In this document: positions 6,084-33,200 of the stretch, piece by piece
Layout of the letters: every line of letters starts with the position of its first letter
How positions within the stretch are numbered: position 1 is the first letter of the stretch
From: Monosiga brevicollis MX1
Lineage: Eukaryota > Opisthokonta > Choanoflagellata > Craspedida > Salpingoecidae
Assembly (NCBI RefSeq): GCF_000002865.3
Contig: NW_001865090.1
Coordinates: forward strand, 7,126-71,125
Reading direction: 5' to 3'
DNA: 64,000 nucleotides
Notes under the pieces: generated by a model
Told to the model about the DNA's origin: nothing
The model's input: only the letters and a program-made list of their open reading frames with translations
The model's database searches: none
Position numbers and translations under genes: made by a program

Positions 6084-9000
6084 CTATCTGACCTGATCAA
6101 TGTTACCCATGTTGATAACGTGGGAATGCATCTGAAGAGCCTGATCCAGCTGATTGGCAGCCAGATAATGGCTCAGGTGGCTAATACCCTCGACCACGTC
6201 GGGGGCAATGGCACCCTCAGCCACTTGGCGATAGAATGCACCCAGCTTGCCTCGAATGTCATCGCTCTTGCGCTTCTGCTTAGGCTGAAGGCGGCCCAGT
6301 GCGCTTTCAAGGTTGGTCTACCATCGTCAACACAGCGCAAGACGTGTGAGTTGACAAATCAAAGAGTAGGCAGAGCAGACAATCACTAGCCAGCAAGACC
6401 ACACGCAGCATGTTTCCCCTTCACACGCACCTGCATGGGTCGGTAGGCTTCTGGTAGCTCGACGGGTGCGTCATTGGCCTCGGGTGCAGCCCCGGTGGCG
6501 CCCGGCGACGCGCCGTCCCCGCTGATGGCACTGAAAGTCCCCGCAGAGCTGGGCGTGTCCATTGAATAATCTGGCTGCAAAAATGGTGAGCTCACTGCAC
6601 CCGGACCTGGCGCTGCCGCTGGAGCAGCGGCCGGCACGGGCATCGTACTGGACAATGCGGGTCCGGTCGGCTTGCGCCGACGACTGGAGAGGTTCATGGG
6701 TGGGTCGTTCCAGCCTCGCAGCGAGTTGCGTTCTTGTTGGGACACGGGTCCAAGCTTAAGACTCGCCTGACCGTCGACTGGTGGCGCACCACCGTTGGCC
6801 ATAGGGCGTTGAGGTGAGTCGAGCGGCACCTCCTGCATGCCATTGTTTCCGACTTCTGCCATGGCCGATAGACCGGACACCTCATTCACGGCTGGATTGG
6901 GCGTTTCAGGCTCCATAGGGGCGGATAGCGAGACAGCGCTCTCAGGGCGTGAAGGCTCGGGGACCGGGCCGGTGGTCTCCAGGGCAGGTACACTTGAATC
7001 TTCGTGTACGGGCACCACTGGTGCAGGACTTGGGTCCATTGATGCGCTGCTGCCATCCGCAGCCGCATACAGGGGTGGGGCGACGGCAGTGTTCTGAGTC
7101 CTCGGGGCCTCGGCTGTTGTGGCAAAAAAACTGTTGGCAAAGGGAGTTGAGGGTGGTGCGGCAGCTGCCACTCCGGTGGACACGGTCCCCGTAGGCGTGG
7201 ACACGCCAAAGCCTGCACACAAACAAGATACCATACAAGGACGCAAGCGTGTGACGAGAAGTGCATCTGCTCCAATGCCAATCCGAGTGCTAGTCCAGAA
7301 GCTGGACAGCGTGAGGGAAACGGGGAAAGGGCTTACCGCCGTTTGTGGGGGCATTCTCTGGCGTTGCTGTGGGCGGCCCGGAAGCTGCGCCATGCGTGGG
7401 CGAAAACGGGTTGTAGGCGGAGGGAGTCCATGGCATGTTGCCCGTGGTCTGCACGCCAGGGGCGGATGATGCCATGGGCTCGCTGGCGCTTTCACCCCCC
7501 GCCAGAATCGCTGCGGCCGAGTCAGCAGCACGAGAAAAGAAGCTGGATACCGAGGCCAAAGAGCTGCCCGTTGGTGGCTCGGGCGTCGAGGTAGTGGGGG
7601 CGTAGGCCGAACCAAACAAAGGCGGCGCACTGTTATCCAAGGCAACAGCTGCGCCGCCGTCCATGGGCATGCTAGAGGCGGCAGAGTAACCCACGTTGTA
7701 AAAGGTGGGCGGAGCGGACTTGCCCGAAGACTGGACAGTTGGGGGAGCACTCGCGGGCGGGGCCGACAGGAAACCGTTGGTCGTGGCAGGGACCGTTGGT
7801 TGGGCCTGCTCTGCGGCTTGGGCAGCGGCCTGGCGAGCCGCCATCACCGGGGCTGGTGCCGACGCCGAGGAGCTGGCGAAGGAGCGCATTGAGGTGGGGG
7901 AGCCCGCTTCACGTCGAGCCAAGGAAGTGCCAGCAATGTACAACGGAGGTGCACTGTTATCGGTCGCATCCGGAACAGTGACGGGCTCTCCGTTGTCCTC
8001 GTTGATGGTGGGGATGGGACTTGCTTCCGGTGCCACGTTGCTGTCTGCCATGGGCATGGGCTGCTGATACTGATAAGGTGAAGATTGATACTGCTGGTAT
8101 TGTTGTTGTTGTTGTTGTTGTTGGTATTGTTCTTGTTGTTGCTGCTGCTCCTGCTGTTGTTGCTGCTGTCCTGGTTGTGATGAATAGTAAGACGGATGCT
8201 GCTGTGACGCCTCTTGGTGGTACGCGGGGTAATAGTCGACGGTATTCTCTTGATGGGCGACGACTGGTGTGGGGGGCAGAGCTGGGGGTGTAACGCGCTC
8301 ACGCATGTCAAGCTTGTAAAAGTCAGACTCTTCCAGCAGCTCTTTCAGAACGTGAGGATCTGTAGGAAACTCAAAATTGTCCTAGCAAGGGATCAGTCCA
8401 TTGGTGCAGCGATGAGACAGGAAGGAGCAAGACCGTCCCTATCCACGAGCCCTTTGCTGGGAACTGGCGTACCGGGTTTCGCAAAAAGTTGAGGATGAGG
8501 TGGAAGTGGCGCCCGTCGCGATCAATGAAATAGCTGCCATCTTCATCCTAACGTCATCGGGCATGGCTTGTGAGTGATTGTGATGGTGTGTGCCGGATAC
8601 TATCGACCATGCAACCATGGCCTTGTCGCAGGCACTCAACAAGCCACAAGCCGCGCGCCAAGATCAAGGCCAACCTGCTCAAGCTCATAGTTGCCGCTGA
8701 ACATGGCTGACAGGTAAGAATCCGGCACTGAAGTTAGAGTGCTGCGGGCAGTGCTAAATGTTTGGCCACCCACGTCCAGTTTGATCTGAGTGGCCAGAGG
8801 TGAACGGTCACAGAGGAAAGGAGGGTCGATCAGTGAGTCTGCCGTGCTTGAGCCTAGGGTTTGTTATTTGTGTGAGGGCCAAGGCGTATTCGAACCTTTT
8901 GCTTCTGAAACGTGTGGGCATTGGCCATGGCAGCCTTTTCGTCTTCAAAGGCCTGGCGCTCACTCGCCAGCGCCTCACGGGCTGCCTCTAGCTCCTCCTC

Positions 9001-9567
9001 CTGCACGCAACAGATCAGATGCAGCGCGGCAACGCAGCGTCAGTCATAGCCATCTGTGGTTTGTGGATGCCAGACGGCTCGACTCGATCGGAGGCAAGGC
9101 TGGGATAAAAGGCCCTACCGACTCGGCACGGCGGCGGGCAATCTCCGACTCGAGGTCAGCAGCCCGATCATCAAGCTCCTGCTGCAGCTTTTCAAGCTGG
9201 ATTTGAAGTCAAAGGGGGCGGGGCAGGGTGGATAGATATCAGTCGAGACGGGCAGCTGGGGAGTGCTGCTTCGCAACTCGACAAGGGATACAAAGAAGGC
9301 TTGCCCGTGTTGGCAATCGCCGACATTTTCGCTGCTGCTGGAAGGACTGGTTCGGCTCACCGTTTCATGCCGCAGCTGCAAAGCGTTGACGAGGACCTCG
9401 ACTTCGTTCTGGATCGAAGTGGTGGCATTGCTGACCAGGTGTGTGAGGTCTGCCGCCGAGATGCCTTCACGAGCGGTTTCATTCATTGACTGCTGATCGG
9501 CGCCCGAATCTTCGACGCCAGCCTGGTCCGGCTCGGCAACCGGCGCCTCTTCTTCGTGGCTCGCCAT
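6084..9567 (-). CDS. Coiled-coil / BTB-T1 (KCTD-type) / Sec31 C-terminus fusion protein
   Basis: Eight exons (9361-9567, 9119-9196, 8896-9000, 8675-8785, 8473-8547, 7337-8381, 6431-7212, 6084-6317) join in phase to about 878 residues; start MASHEEEAPV. Residues about 50-130 are charged coiled coil. About 131-217 is a BTB/T1 fold of KCTD type: IKLDVGGQTFSTARSTLTS, DGSYFIDRDGRHFHLILNFL, HVLKELLEESDFYKL. The same exon then runs into a Gln-rich stretch (about 250-280) and a long Pro/Ala/Ser region with repeated APPLY/APPLF motifs. GWNDPP near residue 703 is a hallmark of the Sec31 Pro-rich region, and the last about 77 residues (from TNLESALGRLQPKQ) match the helical C-terminal domain of Sec31. 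The Sec31 WD40 and alpha-solenoid halves are absent. In animals the Cul3 adaptor KLHL12, a BTB protein, ubiquitinates Sec31, so the fusion is suggestive. The exact C-terminus is uncertain. Confidence 0.75.
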
Positions 9568-27257: not shown

Positions 27258-30200
27258 CTATGACCTCAGGCCTTCTCCAACAAAGCTAAGACTTCCTTGC
27301 TCTTCTATGCATGATGGCAAGACCACGGACCATAGCCAAAGTGAGACTGTGATCTAAGCATCAAGACAAATCCGGCAGGGCGCCTGAACAATACCAGCCA
27401 TACCTTGAGTGTGAGCAGCAGGTTGTCATGGGCAGCCGCAGCAGCAGGTGCAACGGGCCCCCGTCGACTCTTTTGAGCTACCTGGGCCTTGCGCTAAGCA
27501 GAACAAAATCAAACCGGATTCAAAGGCAAATGCAAAGATGAGCACAAGCCCGTAGCAATGCAGCCTGAGTTGAATCAACACATAAAGCTGCGAGCGAAAG
27601 CGTTCCCAAGAGCAAACGCACCTCAAGCAAGCGCACAATACCGTTAAAGCGCGCGACAGCGGGGGCATTCTGCTTCAACAAAGCACAACGTGTGGCATCC
27701 TGACAGCAGGAGAGCAAAAGATCGCAGGCAGGAAAGAAAATGCTGTCCTTGTCGCGATACATCTGCAGCAACTCGACAAGTACCACCATGCTCTCTGTGG
27801 TTGTAAAAGTTGCACTTCGTGTTGAGGCATGTTGAAACAAGTGTTGGAAGATGGCCAAAGTGTACTCCAACAGGACCATGTGGGGCTTGCTACGATTGCA
27901 AGCATTGACGAGCTCCATCAAAATACGCACGGCATCATCTTGCTCCACCAATTGCAGGCAACACTCTGGCGAGAGCTTGGTCACGATGCATAGCGTTTTT
28001 ACGGCCTTGAGCACAAATGTCAGCTTTTGATGAGTCAACAAAATTTCAAGGGCACTACGAGCTCGGTTGCCGAGCTTCATGCACTCCTCGGTGTTTGCGG
28101 CGAGATAGCGCACGCGCTTGGCAATTTCCTTGAGCTTGCGGCTCATGGTTTTACGCGTCTGATAAGCACGCCAGCTGGCCTGGATGGAGGTGGCTGCACG
28201 GCTTTGACGAAGGATTTGCAAAGCCTCGCGTCGTTCTCGGAAAGCCCGCTGAATAGTAATGGCAGCCGCTTTTTGCCGAACAAGATGGCGCCGAGCGAGC
28301 CATCCCCGCACTACTGCCTGGGCACGGCACACTAGCTCAGCGTTGCGGGCATAGGCTCGAGCGGCCAACTCAGCACGATACGCACGTCGTGCTAACATGC
28401 CACGCCACACGGCAACCAGTTTGGTGGCAGCTGCAACCTCCTGACGACGGCGACGCATGAGCGCGCGTGCATGCCAGCCACGATAGGCGGCTTGCAGGCA
28501 CACAGCAGCCACACGCTGACGTTCCAGGGTGTCGCGCAACTCTCGCGCATGGCAACGTGCCATGAAGCCACGAACCAGTGCATTGATTTTCGTTGCAGCA
28601 ACATGTTGAACCCTTAGGCGCTGGGTCTGGCGACGAGCCATAAAGCCCCGCACGACGCGCTGAATCGTCAGCGACGCCATCGTCTGCTGCTGGCGCTTCA
28701 CACGCAAGCGCTGGGTCTGACGACGAGCCATAAAGCCCCGCACGACTCGCTGAATCGTCAGCGACGCCATCGTCTGCTGCTGGCGCTTCACACGCAAGCG
28801 CTGGGTCTGGCGACGAGCCATAAAGCCCCGCACGACTCGCTGAATCGTCAGCGACGCCATCGTCTGCTGCTGGCGCTTCACACGCAAGCGCTGGGTCTGA
28901 CGACGAGCCATAAAGCCCCGCACGACGCGCTGAATCGTCAGCGACGCCATCGTCTGCTGCTGGCGCTTCACACGCAAGCGCTGGGTCTGACGACGAGCCA
29001 TAAAGCCCCGCACGACGCGCTGAATCGTCAGCGACGCCATCGTCTGCTGCTGGCGCTCCACACGCAAGCGCTGGGTCTGACGACGAGCCATAAAGCCCCG
29101 CACGACGCGCTGAATCGTCAGCGACGCCATCGTCTGCTGCTTCTGTGCTTCAGCAGCAGTGGCTAAGCGACTGAAGGTACTGCTTGCGAGCCAAAAACAT
29201 ACGAACTTGAGACTGGAGTACGATGGCAGCACGCGCCTGTCGAAGAGCCTGGACTCGTCGTTGAGCCACCACTGCACGATACGCTGACTGAAGCACCACC
29301 ACTGCGCGCGTTTGCTGCTGCCATAACTTTGCACGAGCTTGGCGCGCTCTCTCACGAAAAATCCATTGTTTGAAGGCACGCTGCAAGCAGCATGCGGCTG
29401 TAAACTCCGCCAATTGGGAAGCTCGTGCTGCCTCACGTTGATGCAATACAGACTTCAGCTCGATGATCACGCTATCAAACGCCGAGCGAGCGTGCATCTC
29501 TTGCCTTTTGAGAGCCATGATGGTTTGTCGCGCGTGCCAACCTCGCATCACACGCTGCAAGCACACCGCAGCTTGGTGCATGCCGAGGACGTGCTGGCGA
29601 GCCAAAAACATGCGTACAATGGCCTGAAGTCGCACGGCTGCCTCGTGTTTGTTAGCAAGGCTGGCGCGAGCCAGCGTGCCACGCCAAGCAGCCTGCAGCA
29701 CAACTGCAGAAGTTCGCGCAGTCTGGTACTTGCGCTGGGCGTGATTCATACGCCACCAAGCAGCGATGCGAGTGGCTGCAATTGTGTTCCTGTTAGCTTC
29801 CAGTGCTGCCACCTGCTCTTTTCGACGCCACAGCCACGTACGCACGGCCTGCTGCAGAGTCCTGGCAGCTGCACGCTGCTTCAAAAATGTTTGCCGAGCT
29901 GAACGTCCCAGCAAAATGGCTTTCCAGCGTGACTGCAGTGCCATAGCCGCTGATTCTCGCTGGGCACAAGCCAATGCAAACTGCTGTCGGGACAAGGCAC
30001 CTCGCATGAAGTTTTGAATGTGGAGTACGCCAGTTCGCGTCTTGTGCCAGGCACAAGTGGCCGCACGAGCACGAAGGACGGCTTGAAGGCGTTGGATGCC
30101 ATGCCGTACTGTGGAAAAGCGACGAGCGGCGAGCATGCAGCGAATATTGCTTTGAAGCACGATAGTAGCGGCACGCAACTGCTGAAAGTGTCGGCGCTGA

Positions 30201-33200
30201 ATATGAGCTCGCCACCAAGTGGCAATCTGAGTCGTTGCTTGATGGCGGCGTTGCATCTCCTGGCGCGCGGCCCACCCGAGTACCACAGCTTGGATGCGCG
30301 AAGCGGCTGTGTATTGTCGCTTTTGATGTTCACTAATTGCATGATCACAGGCCTTGGCGTGTGCCGCCTGACGAGCGGCTGTACGGCTGCGAACCAGGGC
30401 GTGCCACCAGCGCTGGATAACAAGCGCTGCACGCGCTTCCACGCTAATGTCGAGCAGACGCTTGGCCAAGTAGGCCACGTAAGCAATGACGACCTTCTCA
30501 TCGGGCAGCGTCCCGCTCAATTCACTGGAGCGCGCAAGAAGAGGCACACCACCCATGGCTTTAATGGCCTGACTGAGCAGCTTGAAATTGTGTCGTTCAT
30601 TGGCCAGCAATTGTTGGCGAGTGCGGCCGCCGAGCGTGTTGGTCCCCGGGCTGTAAGCGGCAGCAAATCCGTGTGCACCTTCTTCCAGGACAGCATGATC
30701 GTTGTCGTAAGTTGTGGCGGCCTCCTGCACCGTCAAGGTCGTTTCAAACTCCACGTCCTCCATGGCCAACAACTCGGGGTGGTAGTGATGAATCAATGCG
30801 CAGAGCACACGCCCATCGGAAAAAGAGCTAGCAAAGTTGCTCACAGGAACCTCATAGCGCAGTGTCACCAGGCGAGCCCACTGCAGAAGAAGAGTCAGGT
30901 GTGGTGAATTGACGTACATCTCTCCCTGTGAGACACGACGCTGCTCATCAAGCTGGCGGTAACTAGGATCACGCTTGAGTTGGGCAATCTCTTGAGTCAA
31001 TCGCTCCGTGTCCACAATGTCGTGAATTTTGAAATGCAGAAGGATGCGCCAAAGCACATTGAGGGTCTGCTCACGATGCCCAGCCACAACTGGGTTGATG
31101 GTAGATTCAAGAAGAAGACAGCCGTGGCGCTGCAAGCAGAAAAGGTGGCAAAATGTTCAGCATAAGAAAAGGTAATGAGAGCTGGGGTGCACCGCGGGAT
31201 GAAGCCTTGGGCCGTACCTTGAGCGTCTCAAAGACGGCTTTGACGTTATGGACCTTCTGGAGACGACTGATGGCTGGCGTGCGTAAGTTGGACATAAGGT
31301 CACTTGTCCCATCGCGCTGTGCAAGCAACAGCTCACACAGGTGGGCCAAGCGCACACCATCACGCAGGTCCTCAGCTAGATTAGTCACCTGTTTGGAACC
31401 AAACCCAGGTCAACCGGCATAACACGTTGTGAGTGAGTCGTAATGGCGGGCTTGGAAGACAAACTCTGAGGGCGTGGGTTTAAGCATTTACCTGAAAATT
31501 GTACTCATCCAGGTACGTCTGGCGAGATTGAACGACATAGCCGAGATAGCTGAGATGCTTGACAACGTCACCCTCTCCTTTGAGCAACTCCCGCGAAAGC
31601 AGGACCAAAAACTCGTTGGTCGCCTTCACTTCGCTTCCCTTGGCAAACATCAAACATTCAGGACCCAGCAGCTGAGCACTCTTGATCTACACAAACCCGA
31701 CATCAATCAAAATCCAAGCAGGTATGACAGCGGAAATGAGTTGATGAGAAGCAAGTGCTCATGAACAGACATGCAATAAATATGCAGCTTTTACATGGCC
31801 ATCTGTGCTTAGCGGCACGTCTGAACGGGACACACAAACAAGCAAGCAAACAAGCAAGCAAGCACAGGTTTGATGGCACAGTGCCAGCTGCATATAACAG
31901 GAGTGGAACACCCATGAATCACCTGATCCAAAAAGAAGATCAGCGCCAGGTAACGCTTGAGCGTGTATTGTTTGAGTTGGGGTTCGAATTCCGCGGTGTA
32001 GGATCCAGGCACCGCGGGATGAGCATGTTGTGCGGCAAGCTCAGGGCTGAAGAGAAGTCGGTTAGCCAAAAAGCTGGCAAGCATACGACGTTGTCCATCA
32101 TCGTCGTCTCGGGCAAAGGGGGCCAGGGAAACGCCGAAGACGGTTTCGATACCAAGTTGCAGATACGAGTTGGAGAAAGAGAGCAGGGCACCAATGATGG
32201 ATTCGCGTAGACCCACATCGGCCCATGGGGCTCGATCCTCACGGATGGCAATGTGTCCCGACTCGATTTCACCGTTGACACGCTGCAGGACGTCTTGCAC
32301 CGGTGCCGAAGTGAAGTGCGCCATGGCTCGACCCTGGTGTTGCAGCCAGCGCCGGCGCCGTTCAGAAGAGGGCAGCAGCTCGTCATCGCCAGCAAAGATA
32401 TGGTTTAACCACCTGGACATCACGTCAAGTAGGCTGGTGAGTGACGGGTGCATACAGCGTTTTTGGGTGTGCAATGAAGGTGTAAAACAGTCAAGATGTG
32501 GCGACCCACCGAGTAAAGCCGGCAGTCTGCTTCGTGGCCCAGTCGTCATCGTGATACATGTTTACAGCGGCAAAAACGTTGTGGGCGGGTTTGGGTTGAT
32601 CGCTCGGTTTTGCAGCACGCTTGAGCGAGAGCGATCGCATGGCCACGCCGACTGCAGGCTTGTCAGCTTCAGTGCTGGCACCAGACTTGAGACGGCGAAT
32701 TGAGGCACGGGATTTAGCCCGCAAGAACGACTTGGCAGCGGGAATGGGGGCCTCGTTTTCTTTGGCCAGCTTTTCCTGCTGATCTTTGTTCTGTGGACGG
32801 CCGGCAGGGTGCATGAGACGAACGGCCGTATCGTAGAAGCATGAGCATGCGTTGCTCACCTTGCGACGAATTTCATTTAGTGCCAGTTTGTTTTTGATTC
32901 GGCCTGTCTGTGGACTGATGCTCAGTCGTGGCTGGGGTGACGAGGTGCGGGGCTTTTGAATTCGAAAGCCCTGCGCGTGCGACTTGGGAACGGGCCGAGC
33001 CTTGTAAGACTTCTTGGGGCTAGGCACAAAAGCAATGCCCGTTGTCTTGATCTGATAGCGACGTCCCTCTACACAAGAGGGGCAAAAATGCGTGGTGCAC
33101 ATGTCAATGAGTGAGAGCGGTCCTCAACAAGGATGCGCGGGTTGGTGTGCAGGGGCTGTCACCACGAGCGACCCGGGGGCCTACCCGAGGAGAGATTAAT

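Follow-up and report, generated by a model that had tools for sequence, protein, structure and literature searches.

The coat protein complex II (COPII) covers vesicles that leave the endoplasmic reticulum, and tails of the Sec31 kind connect its two layers. Yeast Sec31 contacts its partners through several short elements: a W922-N923 peptide occupies the Sar1-Sec23 site, Sec23 is bound by PPP motifs, and the affinity is increased by basic clusters (PMC7594496). The C-terminal domain of Sec31 binds the Sec31 rod in cis or in trans, and cells that lose this domain die unless they have less cargo to carry; in the same source SRA1 is called functionally unrelated to Sec31 and is said to occur only in mammals (PMC8016994). 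KCTD-type BTB domains form pentamers, tetramers or monomers (PMC5664961). Here, a gene that joins a BTB head of this type to a tail of the Sec31/SRA1 kind is described from a window of 64,000 nucleotides of the choanoflagellate Monosiga brevicollis MX1 (assembly GCF_000002865.3, contig NW_001865090.1, positions 7,126 to 71,125). The gene occupies positions 9567-5894 of the window on the minus strand, in nine exons encoding 894 residues. Its domain anatomy, the family of its tail, the presence of a separate intact Sec31, the rarity of its motif and the kinship of the motif's flank were established in this analysis. With a probability of roughly 0.45, the product is read as an oligomeric COPII adaptor that would dock on Sec23-Sar1 and on Sec31 rods, its tail being more likely of SRA1-like descent.

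Sec31/SRA1-type tail

The product begins with an acidic segment and a charged helical stretch, followed by a BTB_2/T1 domain (residues 131-218), a Gln-rich run, a Pro/Ala/Ser-rich linker of about 480 residues leading to a GWNDPP motif, and a helical domain running from about residue 793 to the C-terminal end. The tail was searched with a profile built in this analysis from Sec31 tails and scored 50.0 bits (E 1.7e-12), the best of 500 shuffles reaching 3.6 bits. By this match the tail belongs to the Sec31/SRA1 C-terminal family. The GWNDPP in the Pro-rich region is the W-N motif of the Sec31 active fragment, and the basic cluster that follows it resembles that of the organism's own Sec31. Pfam named neither a WD40 propeller nor an alpha-solenoid in the protein, in agreement with an earlier annotation of the same DNA by a model that saw the letters alone (the sequence-only reading), which had reported a Sec31 C-terminal half lacking WD40 repeats. 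Human SRA1, which was scored against the Sec31-tail profile, is a natural headless relative that carries GWNDPP and the same C-terminal domain.

The last exon was missed in the sequence-only reading, whose gene start at 9567 on the minus strand agreed with the exon reading and whose gene end at 6084 lies inside an intron. Exon 9 (5950-5894) is spliced after 6093 with donor GTCAGA and acceptor CTTTAG, and adds AGTVLLSLKSLIHLLKRN and a stop codon. The added peptide aligns in register with the tails of other Sec31 proteins and has their invariant Lys; with it, the tail scores 50.0 bits against the profile instead of 39.5. All introns are 91-164 nt long, start with GT and end with AG.

Separate Sec31 and rarity of the motif

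The genome (39.5 Mb, 57 contigs) was searched for a separate full-length Sec31, as had been proposed, and one was found on contig 17. It has a propeller, pieces of the solenoid, a linker with RWNDPP after it, and a C-terminal domain of its own. Its propeller matched human SEC31A at E 4.3e-31. The protein of the window is therefore an addition to Sec31, and replacement of Sec31 was ruled out. A recent copy of the Sec31 tail was likewise ruled out by other intron positions, 23% identity and a different flank. A DNA pattern for W-N-D-P-P gave three coding sites, one each in the window gene, in Sec31 on contig 17 and in a short contig 55 gene; the reversed pattern, used as control, gave 2 matches. 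Searching the genome with the tail gave further weak rows on contig 56 (E 0.068) and contig 39 (E 3.0). PF11549 and PF07304 matched nothing in the genome, and nothing in the control genomes either, so this search was uninformative.

Origin of the tail

The short gene on contig 55 (about 163,190-164,000) starts with MSEPQ and carries RGWNDPP near its start, as does human SRA1 near its N-terminus. In Pfam it matches SRA1 weakly (14.7 bits against a cut-off of 23.3, E 0.026). The 17 residues before WNDPP, SLKLGPVSQQERNSLRG in the window and ALTLEAVSQQQRDQLRG on contig 55, score 46 against each other, which was equalled in 0 of 20,000 shuffles; this match had been spotted by eye before being tested. 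Among 86 rows, the window included, the next flank score was 12 for human SRA1, followed by 8 for the best Sec31 and -17 for the organism's own Sec31. Sec31 was represented by 82 proteins; of 120 listed Sec31 proteins, 82 have W-N-D-P.

The helical domain gives a different ranking. Against 35 representative Sec31 tails the best score was 114 (urchin), and the organism's own Sec31, 23% identical, scored 89. Human SRA1 scored 71. Neither 89 nor 71 was reached in 1,000 shuffles. The 3' part of the contig 55 gene reads N, and its domain was compared over the readable part, which scored 3.8 bits with the profile (four of 1,000 shuffles were listed above it). Kinship of this part to the helical domain was not significant, the ungapped score being equalled in 291 of 2,000 shuffles; its score with human SRA1 was reached in 45 of 2,000. 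SRA1-specific kinship differs between the two elements, with 46 versus at most 8 for Sec31 in the flank, and 71 for human SRA1 versus up to 114 for Sec31 in the helical domain. As the 17 residues of the flank agree with the SRA1-like gene but with none of the Sec31 proteins, the tail probably descends from an SRA1-like gene rather than from Sec31. Of the fusion claimed in the sequence-only reading, the BTB and a Sec31-type tail stand by profile, and the attribution to Sec31 itself is weakened by the flank and by human SRA1 as a headless relative with the same motif and domain. As a separate observation, an SRA1-like gene on contig 55 is at odds with the occurrence of SRA1 only in mammals stated in PMC8016994, with the caveat of its weak domain match.

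BTB head

The T1/KCTD-type BTB predicted earlier was confirmed by Pfam (BTB_2, 4e-18, residues 131-218, profile positions 1-88 of 94), spread over three exons. Among solved structures, a Kelch protein that we take to be Plasmodium Kelch13 was the best relative (2.8e-17), followed by SHKBP1, KCTD7, BACURD and other KCTD proteins; Kv channels gave weaker matches. Residues 60-225 gave 59 listed relatives in the protein collection, including molluscan DUSP-BTB proteins and BTB-Kelch proteins, one of them named as dinoflagellate. The best database match to the head, P0001 (ENA source, 564 residues), is among these and apparently carries four T1-type BTB units in tandem. No close second copy of the head was found in the genome, the best rows outside the gene having 44% identity over 34 residues and 43%.

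One gene or two

The fusion had been described as independent of any splice guess. This holds for exon 6, where a single frame runs from the end of the BTB through the Gln-rich run into the Pro-rich linker. It does not hold for WNDPP and the helical domain, which lie in exons 7-9, so that the fusion depends on introns 7336-7213 and 6430-6318. Splice phases match across the gene model, which favours one protein. Exons 6 and 7 are long and open, the frame having stayed open in 0.1% and 0.35% of 2,000 shuffles, respectively; the contrast in GC content between codon positions is modest. Two copies of an APPL[YF] motif lie in the linker portion of exon 6 and a third lies in exon 7, so that the motif is present on both sides of intron 7336-7213. 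In 20,000 shuffles, at least two copies in exon 6 were seen in 0 cases and at least one in exon 7 in 0.13%. These repeats (window 7952-7067, minus strand) are at residues 336, 444 and 585, with a variant APPTFY near 415.

Table 1. Exons and motifs of the gene, in window coordinates.
Feature	Position	Strand	Basis
Exon 1, start codon at 9567, acidic N-terminus	9361..9567	-	
Exon 2, charged helical stretch (coiled coil judged by eye)	9119..9196	-	alignment of relatives across much of residues 60-225
Exon 3, charged helical stretch reaching the BTB	8896..9000	-	splice model and alignment of head relatives
Exon 4, BTB/T1 part 1	8675..8785	-	Pfam BTB_2, residues 131-218
Exon 5, BTB/T1 part 2	8473..8547	-	Pfam BTB_2
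Exon 6 (1,045 nt), BTB/T1 part 3 (8381-8304), Gln-rich run, Pro/Ala/Ser-rich linker, two APPL[YF]	7337..8381	-	
Exon 7, linker with further APPLY, docking motif, start of helical domain	6431..7212	-	
Residues 691-707, flank common to the SRA1-like gene on contig 55	6713..6763	-	alignment
GWNDPP motif, residues 707-712 (Sec31 active-fragment/SRA1 motif)	6698..6715	-	
Exon 8, Sec31/SRA1-type C-terminal helical domain	6093..6317	-	profile match
Exon 9, last helix of the helical domain and stop codon	5894..5950	-	splice sites and profile gain

Proposed role and alternatives

In the adaptor reading, the helical stretch and the T1/KCTD-type BTB would form an oligomerising head, connected by the long Gln/Pro-rich linker to the Sec31/SRA1-type tail. 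The W-N peptide of each tail would insert at the Sec23-Sar1 interface and the helical C-terminal domain would dock on Sec31 rods. An oligomeric head would hold several coat units and could thereby tune coat assembly or turnover at endoplasmic reticulum exit sites; the protein would not itself be a cage subunit. The W-N peptide, the basic cluster after it and the C-terminal domain are kept; PPP motifs are absent, and Pfam shows no cage-building part. A multivalent COPII adaptor fits best, with oligomerisation, COPII docking and a regulatory role being inferred. Several results weigh against this. Pfam reported nothing for the tail (neither PF07304 nor PF11549), so that the significant Sec31-tail match called for earlier was obtained with our own profile and not in Pfam, and PDB sequence searches of the tail remained below significance. 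Designed PPR repeats came out on top in PDB phmmer, with no single stretch past threshold, and were set aside as a summed-repeat effect. The protein has no PPP, PPAP or PAPP Sec23 motif. None of the 59 listed head relatives has WNDP or a significant tail, and the tail-region search gave no relative of the same architecture among 7,412 candidates of similar length. SHKBP1, one of the nearest BTBs of known structure, is monomeric alone (PMC5664961), so oligomerisation of the head is not assured. The evidence comes from the sequence of one genome, from which the gene model is predicted. In addition, the frame of exon 7 is open upstream of its acceptor (open reading frame 7750-6386) and that of exon 6, read through, meets a stop at 7290. 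These last two points leave room for a rather improbable reading, a pair of adjacent genes taken for one: a BTB-Gln/Pro gene that would end near 7300 and an SRA1-like gene that would begin within exon 7. The BTB and the tail are joined by splicing alone. On contig 55 the gene begins 13 residues ahead of VSQQ, and in exon 7 a Met lies 13-14 residues ahead of the matching block. Against two genes, both splice sites of intron 7336-7213 are good and its removal preserves the frame, and the APPL[YF] motifs on both its sides are rare in shuffles.

The sequence-only reading had proposed a Cul3 substrate adaptor, the BTB recruiting Cul3 and the tail bringing the ligase to COPII coats, with Sec31 or Sec23 being ubiquitinated; we regard this as unlikely. 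The solved BTB relatives include KCTD and BACURD proteins, but the best of them is a Kelch protein (Plasmodium Kelch13), which is not firmly known to bind Cul3. A Cul3-like gene is present in the genome, its joined pieces matching Cullin-3 at 6.5e-14 and Cullin-1 at 1.1e-11; a cullin piece on contig 49 was rejected as Cul3, its nearest match being Cullin-1 and another piece of the same giving weak Cullin-4/2 rows. Cul3 was bound by five of six KCTD-family BTBs measured (KCTD5, 10, 13, 17 and SHKBP1), whereas the KCTD16 BTB showed no binding (PMC5664961). The precedent invoked earlier is sound, in that Cul3 with KLHL12 modifies Sec31 in animals by monoubiquitylation (PMC4565863), but KLHL12 is a BTB-Kelch protein of another BTB class and therefore an analogy, not a relative. 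Cul3 recruitment by this BTB may occur. Both activities could also be combined in a one-chain Cul3-COPII regulator, in which a BTB ring with several Sec23-Sar1 docking peptides and Sec31-rod docking domains would tether the ligase to the coat. Such a regulator is a doubtful prospect; if it were real, its SRA1-type tail would reveal the SRA1 family working in COPII. Conversely, the tail might do the job of SRA1 outside COPII, with the BTB serving to oligomerise, which we consider slightly more doubtful still. In favour of this, the motif flank is shared with the SRA1-like gene but with no Sec31, SRA1 is functionally unrelated to Sec31 according to PMC8016994, and the SRA1 papers listed concern receptors, RNA and disease. 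This is countered by W-N-D-P in 82 of the 120 listed Sec31 proteins, by the likeness of the basic cluster to that of the organism's own Sec31, and by helical-domain scores of up to 114 against animal Sec31 tails versus 71 against human SRA1. Choanoflagellates are also not known to have nuclear receptors.

No description of a BTB combined with a Sec31/COPII tail was found in the open-access literature searched, and what is new is this architecture of a T1-type BTB with such a tail, undescribed in those sources. Its weight is limited by its coming from a single genome. SRA1 shares the motif and domain of the Sec31 tail, yet is called functionally unrelated (PMC8016994). A protein that keeps both and adds an oligomerising or ligase-recruiting head would be a pointer to what such tails do alone. 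It also raises the possibility that, outside animals, COPII is acted on by BTB proteins of a form other than KLHL12.

Other features

A divergent neighbour on the plus strand, from about 10813, looks eIF3i-like. At 27520-31135 (minus strand), the long reading frames contain numerous IQ motifs and a CH domain, reminiscent of ASPM. SH2 matches in the genome numbered 114 among 142 candidates, which together with the short introns points to a choanoflagellate.

Comparison with known systems

With the C-terminal half of Sec31, the protein shares the W-N-D-P-P peptide, the basic cluster after it, a Pro-rich linker and the helical C-terminal domain. It differs in having a BTB head in place of propeller and solenoid, in lacking PPP, in a motif flank unlike that of any of the 82 Sec31 proteins compared, and in a domain 23% identical to that of the organism's own Sec31. 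Like SRA1 it is free of propeller and solenoid, has RGWNDPP and the same C-terminal domain family, and its flank matches the genome's SRA1-like gene. SRA1 is short with the motif near its N-terminus, whereas the present protein has 894 residues with a BTB head and a long linker, and its helical domain reaches higher scores with the Sec31 tails of animals than with human SRA1.

The T1-type BTB is common to KCTD, BACURD and SHKBP1 proteins, of which SHKBP1 also bears a different C-terminal domain after the BTB (PMC5664961); the tail is absent from all 59 listed head relatives. Coiled coil-BTB-Kelch proteins of dinoflagellates and of the Plasmodium Kelch13 kind likewise have a helical stretch directly before a T1-type BTB, but carry a Kelch propeller where the protein described here has a Sec31/SRA1 tail. 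Two further systems are comparable only in how they would work on the coat. Cul3-KLHL12 is a ligase adaptor for Sec31 in the same coat, with another BTB class and Kelch repeats (PMC4565863). TANGO1 and cTAGE5 are multivalent Sec23 binders with disordered tails (PMC7594496), TANGO1 relying on the PPP motifs that are absent here.
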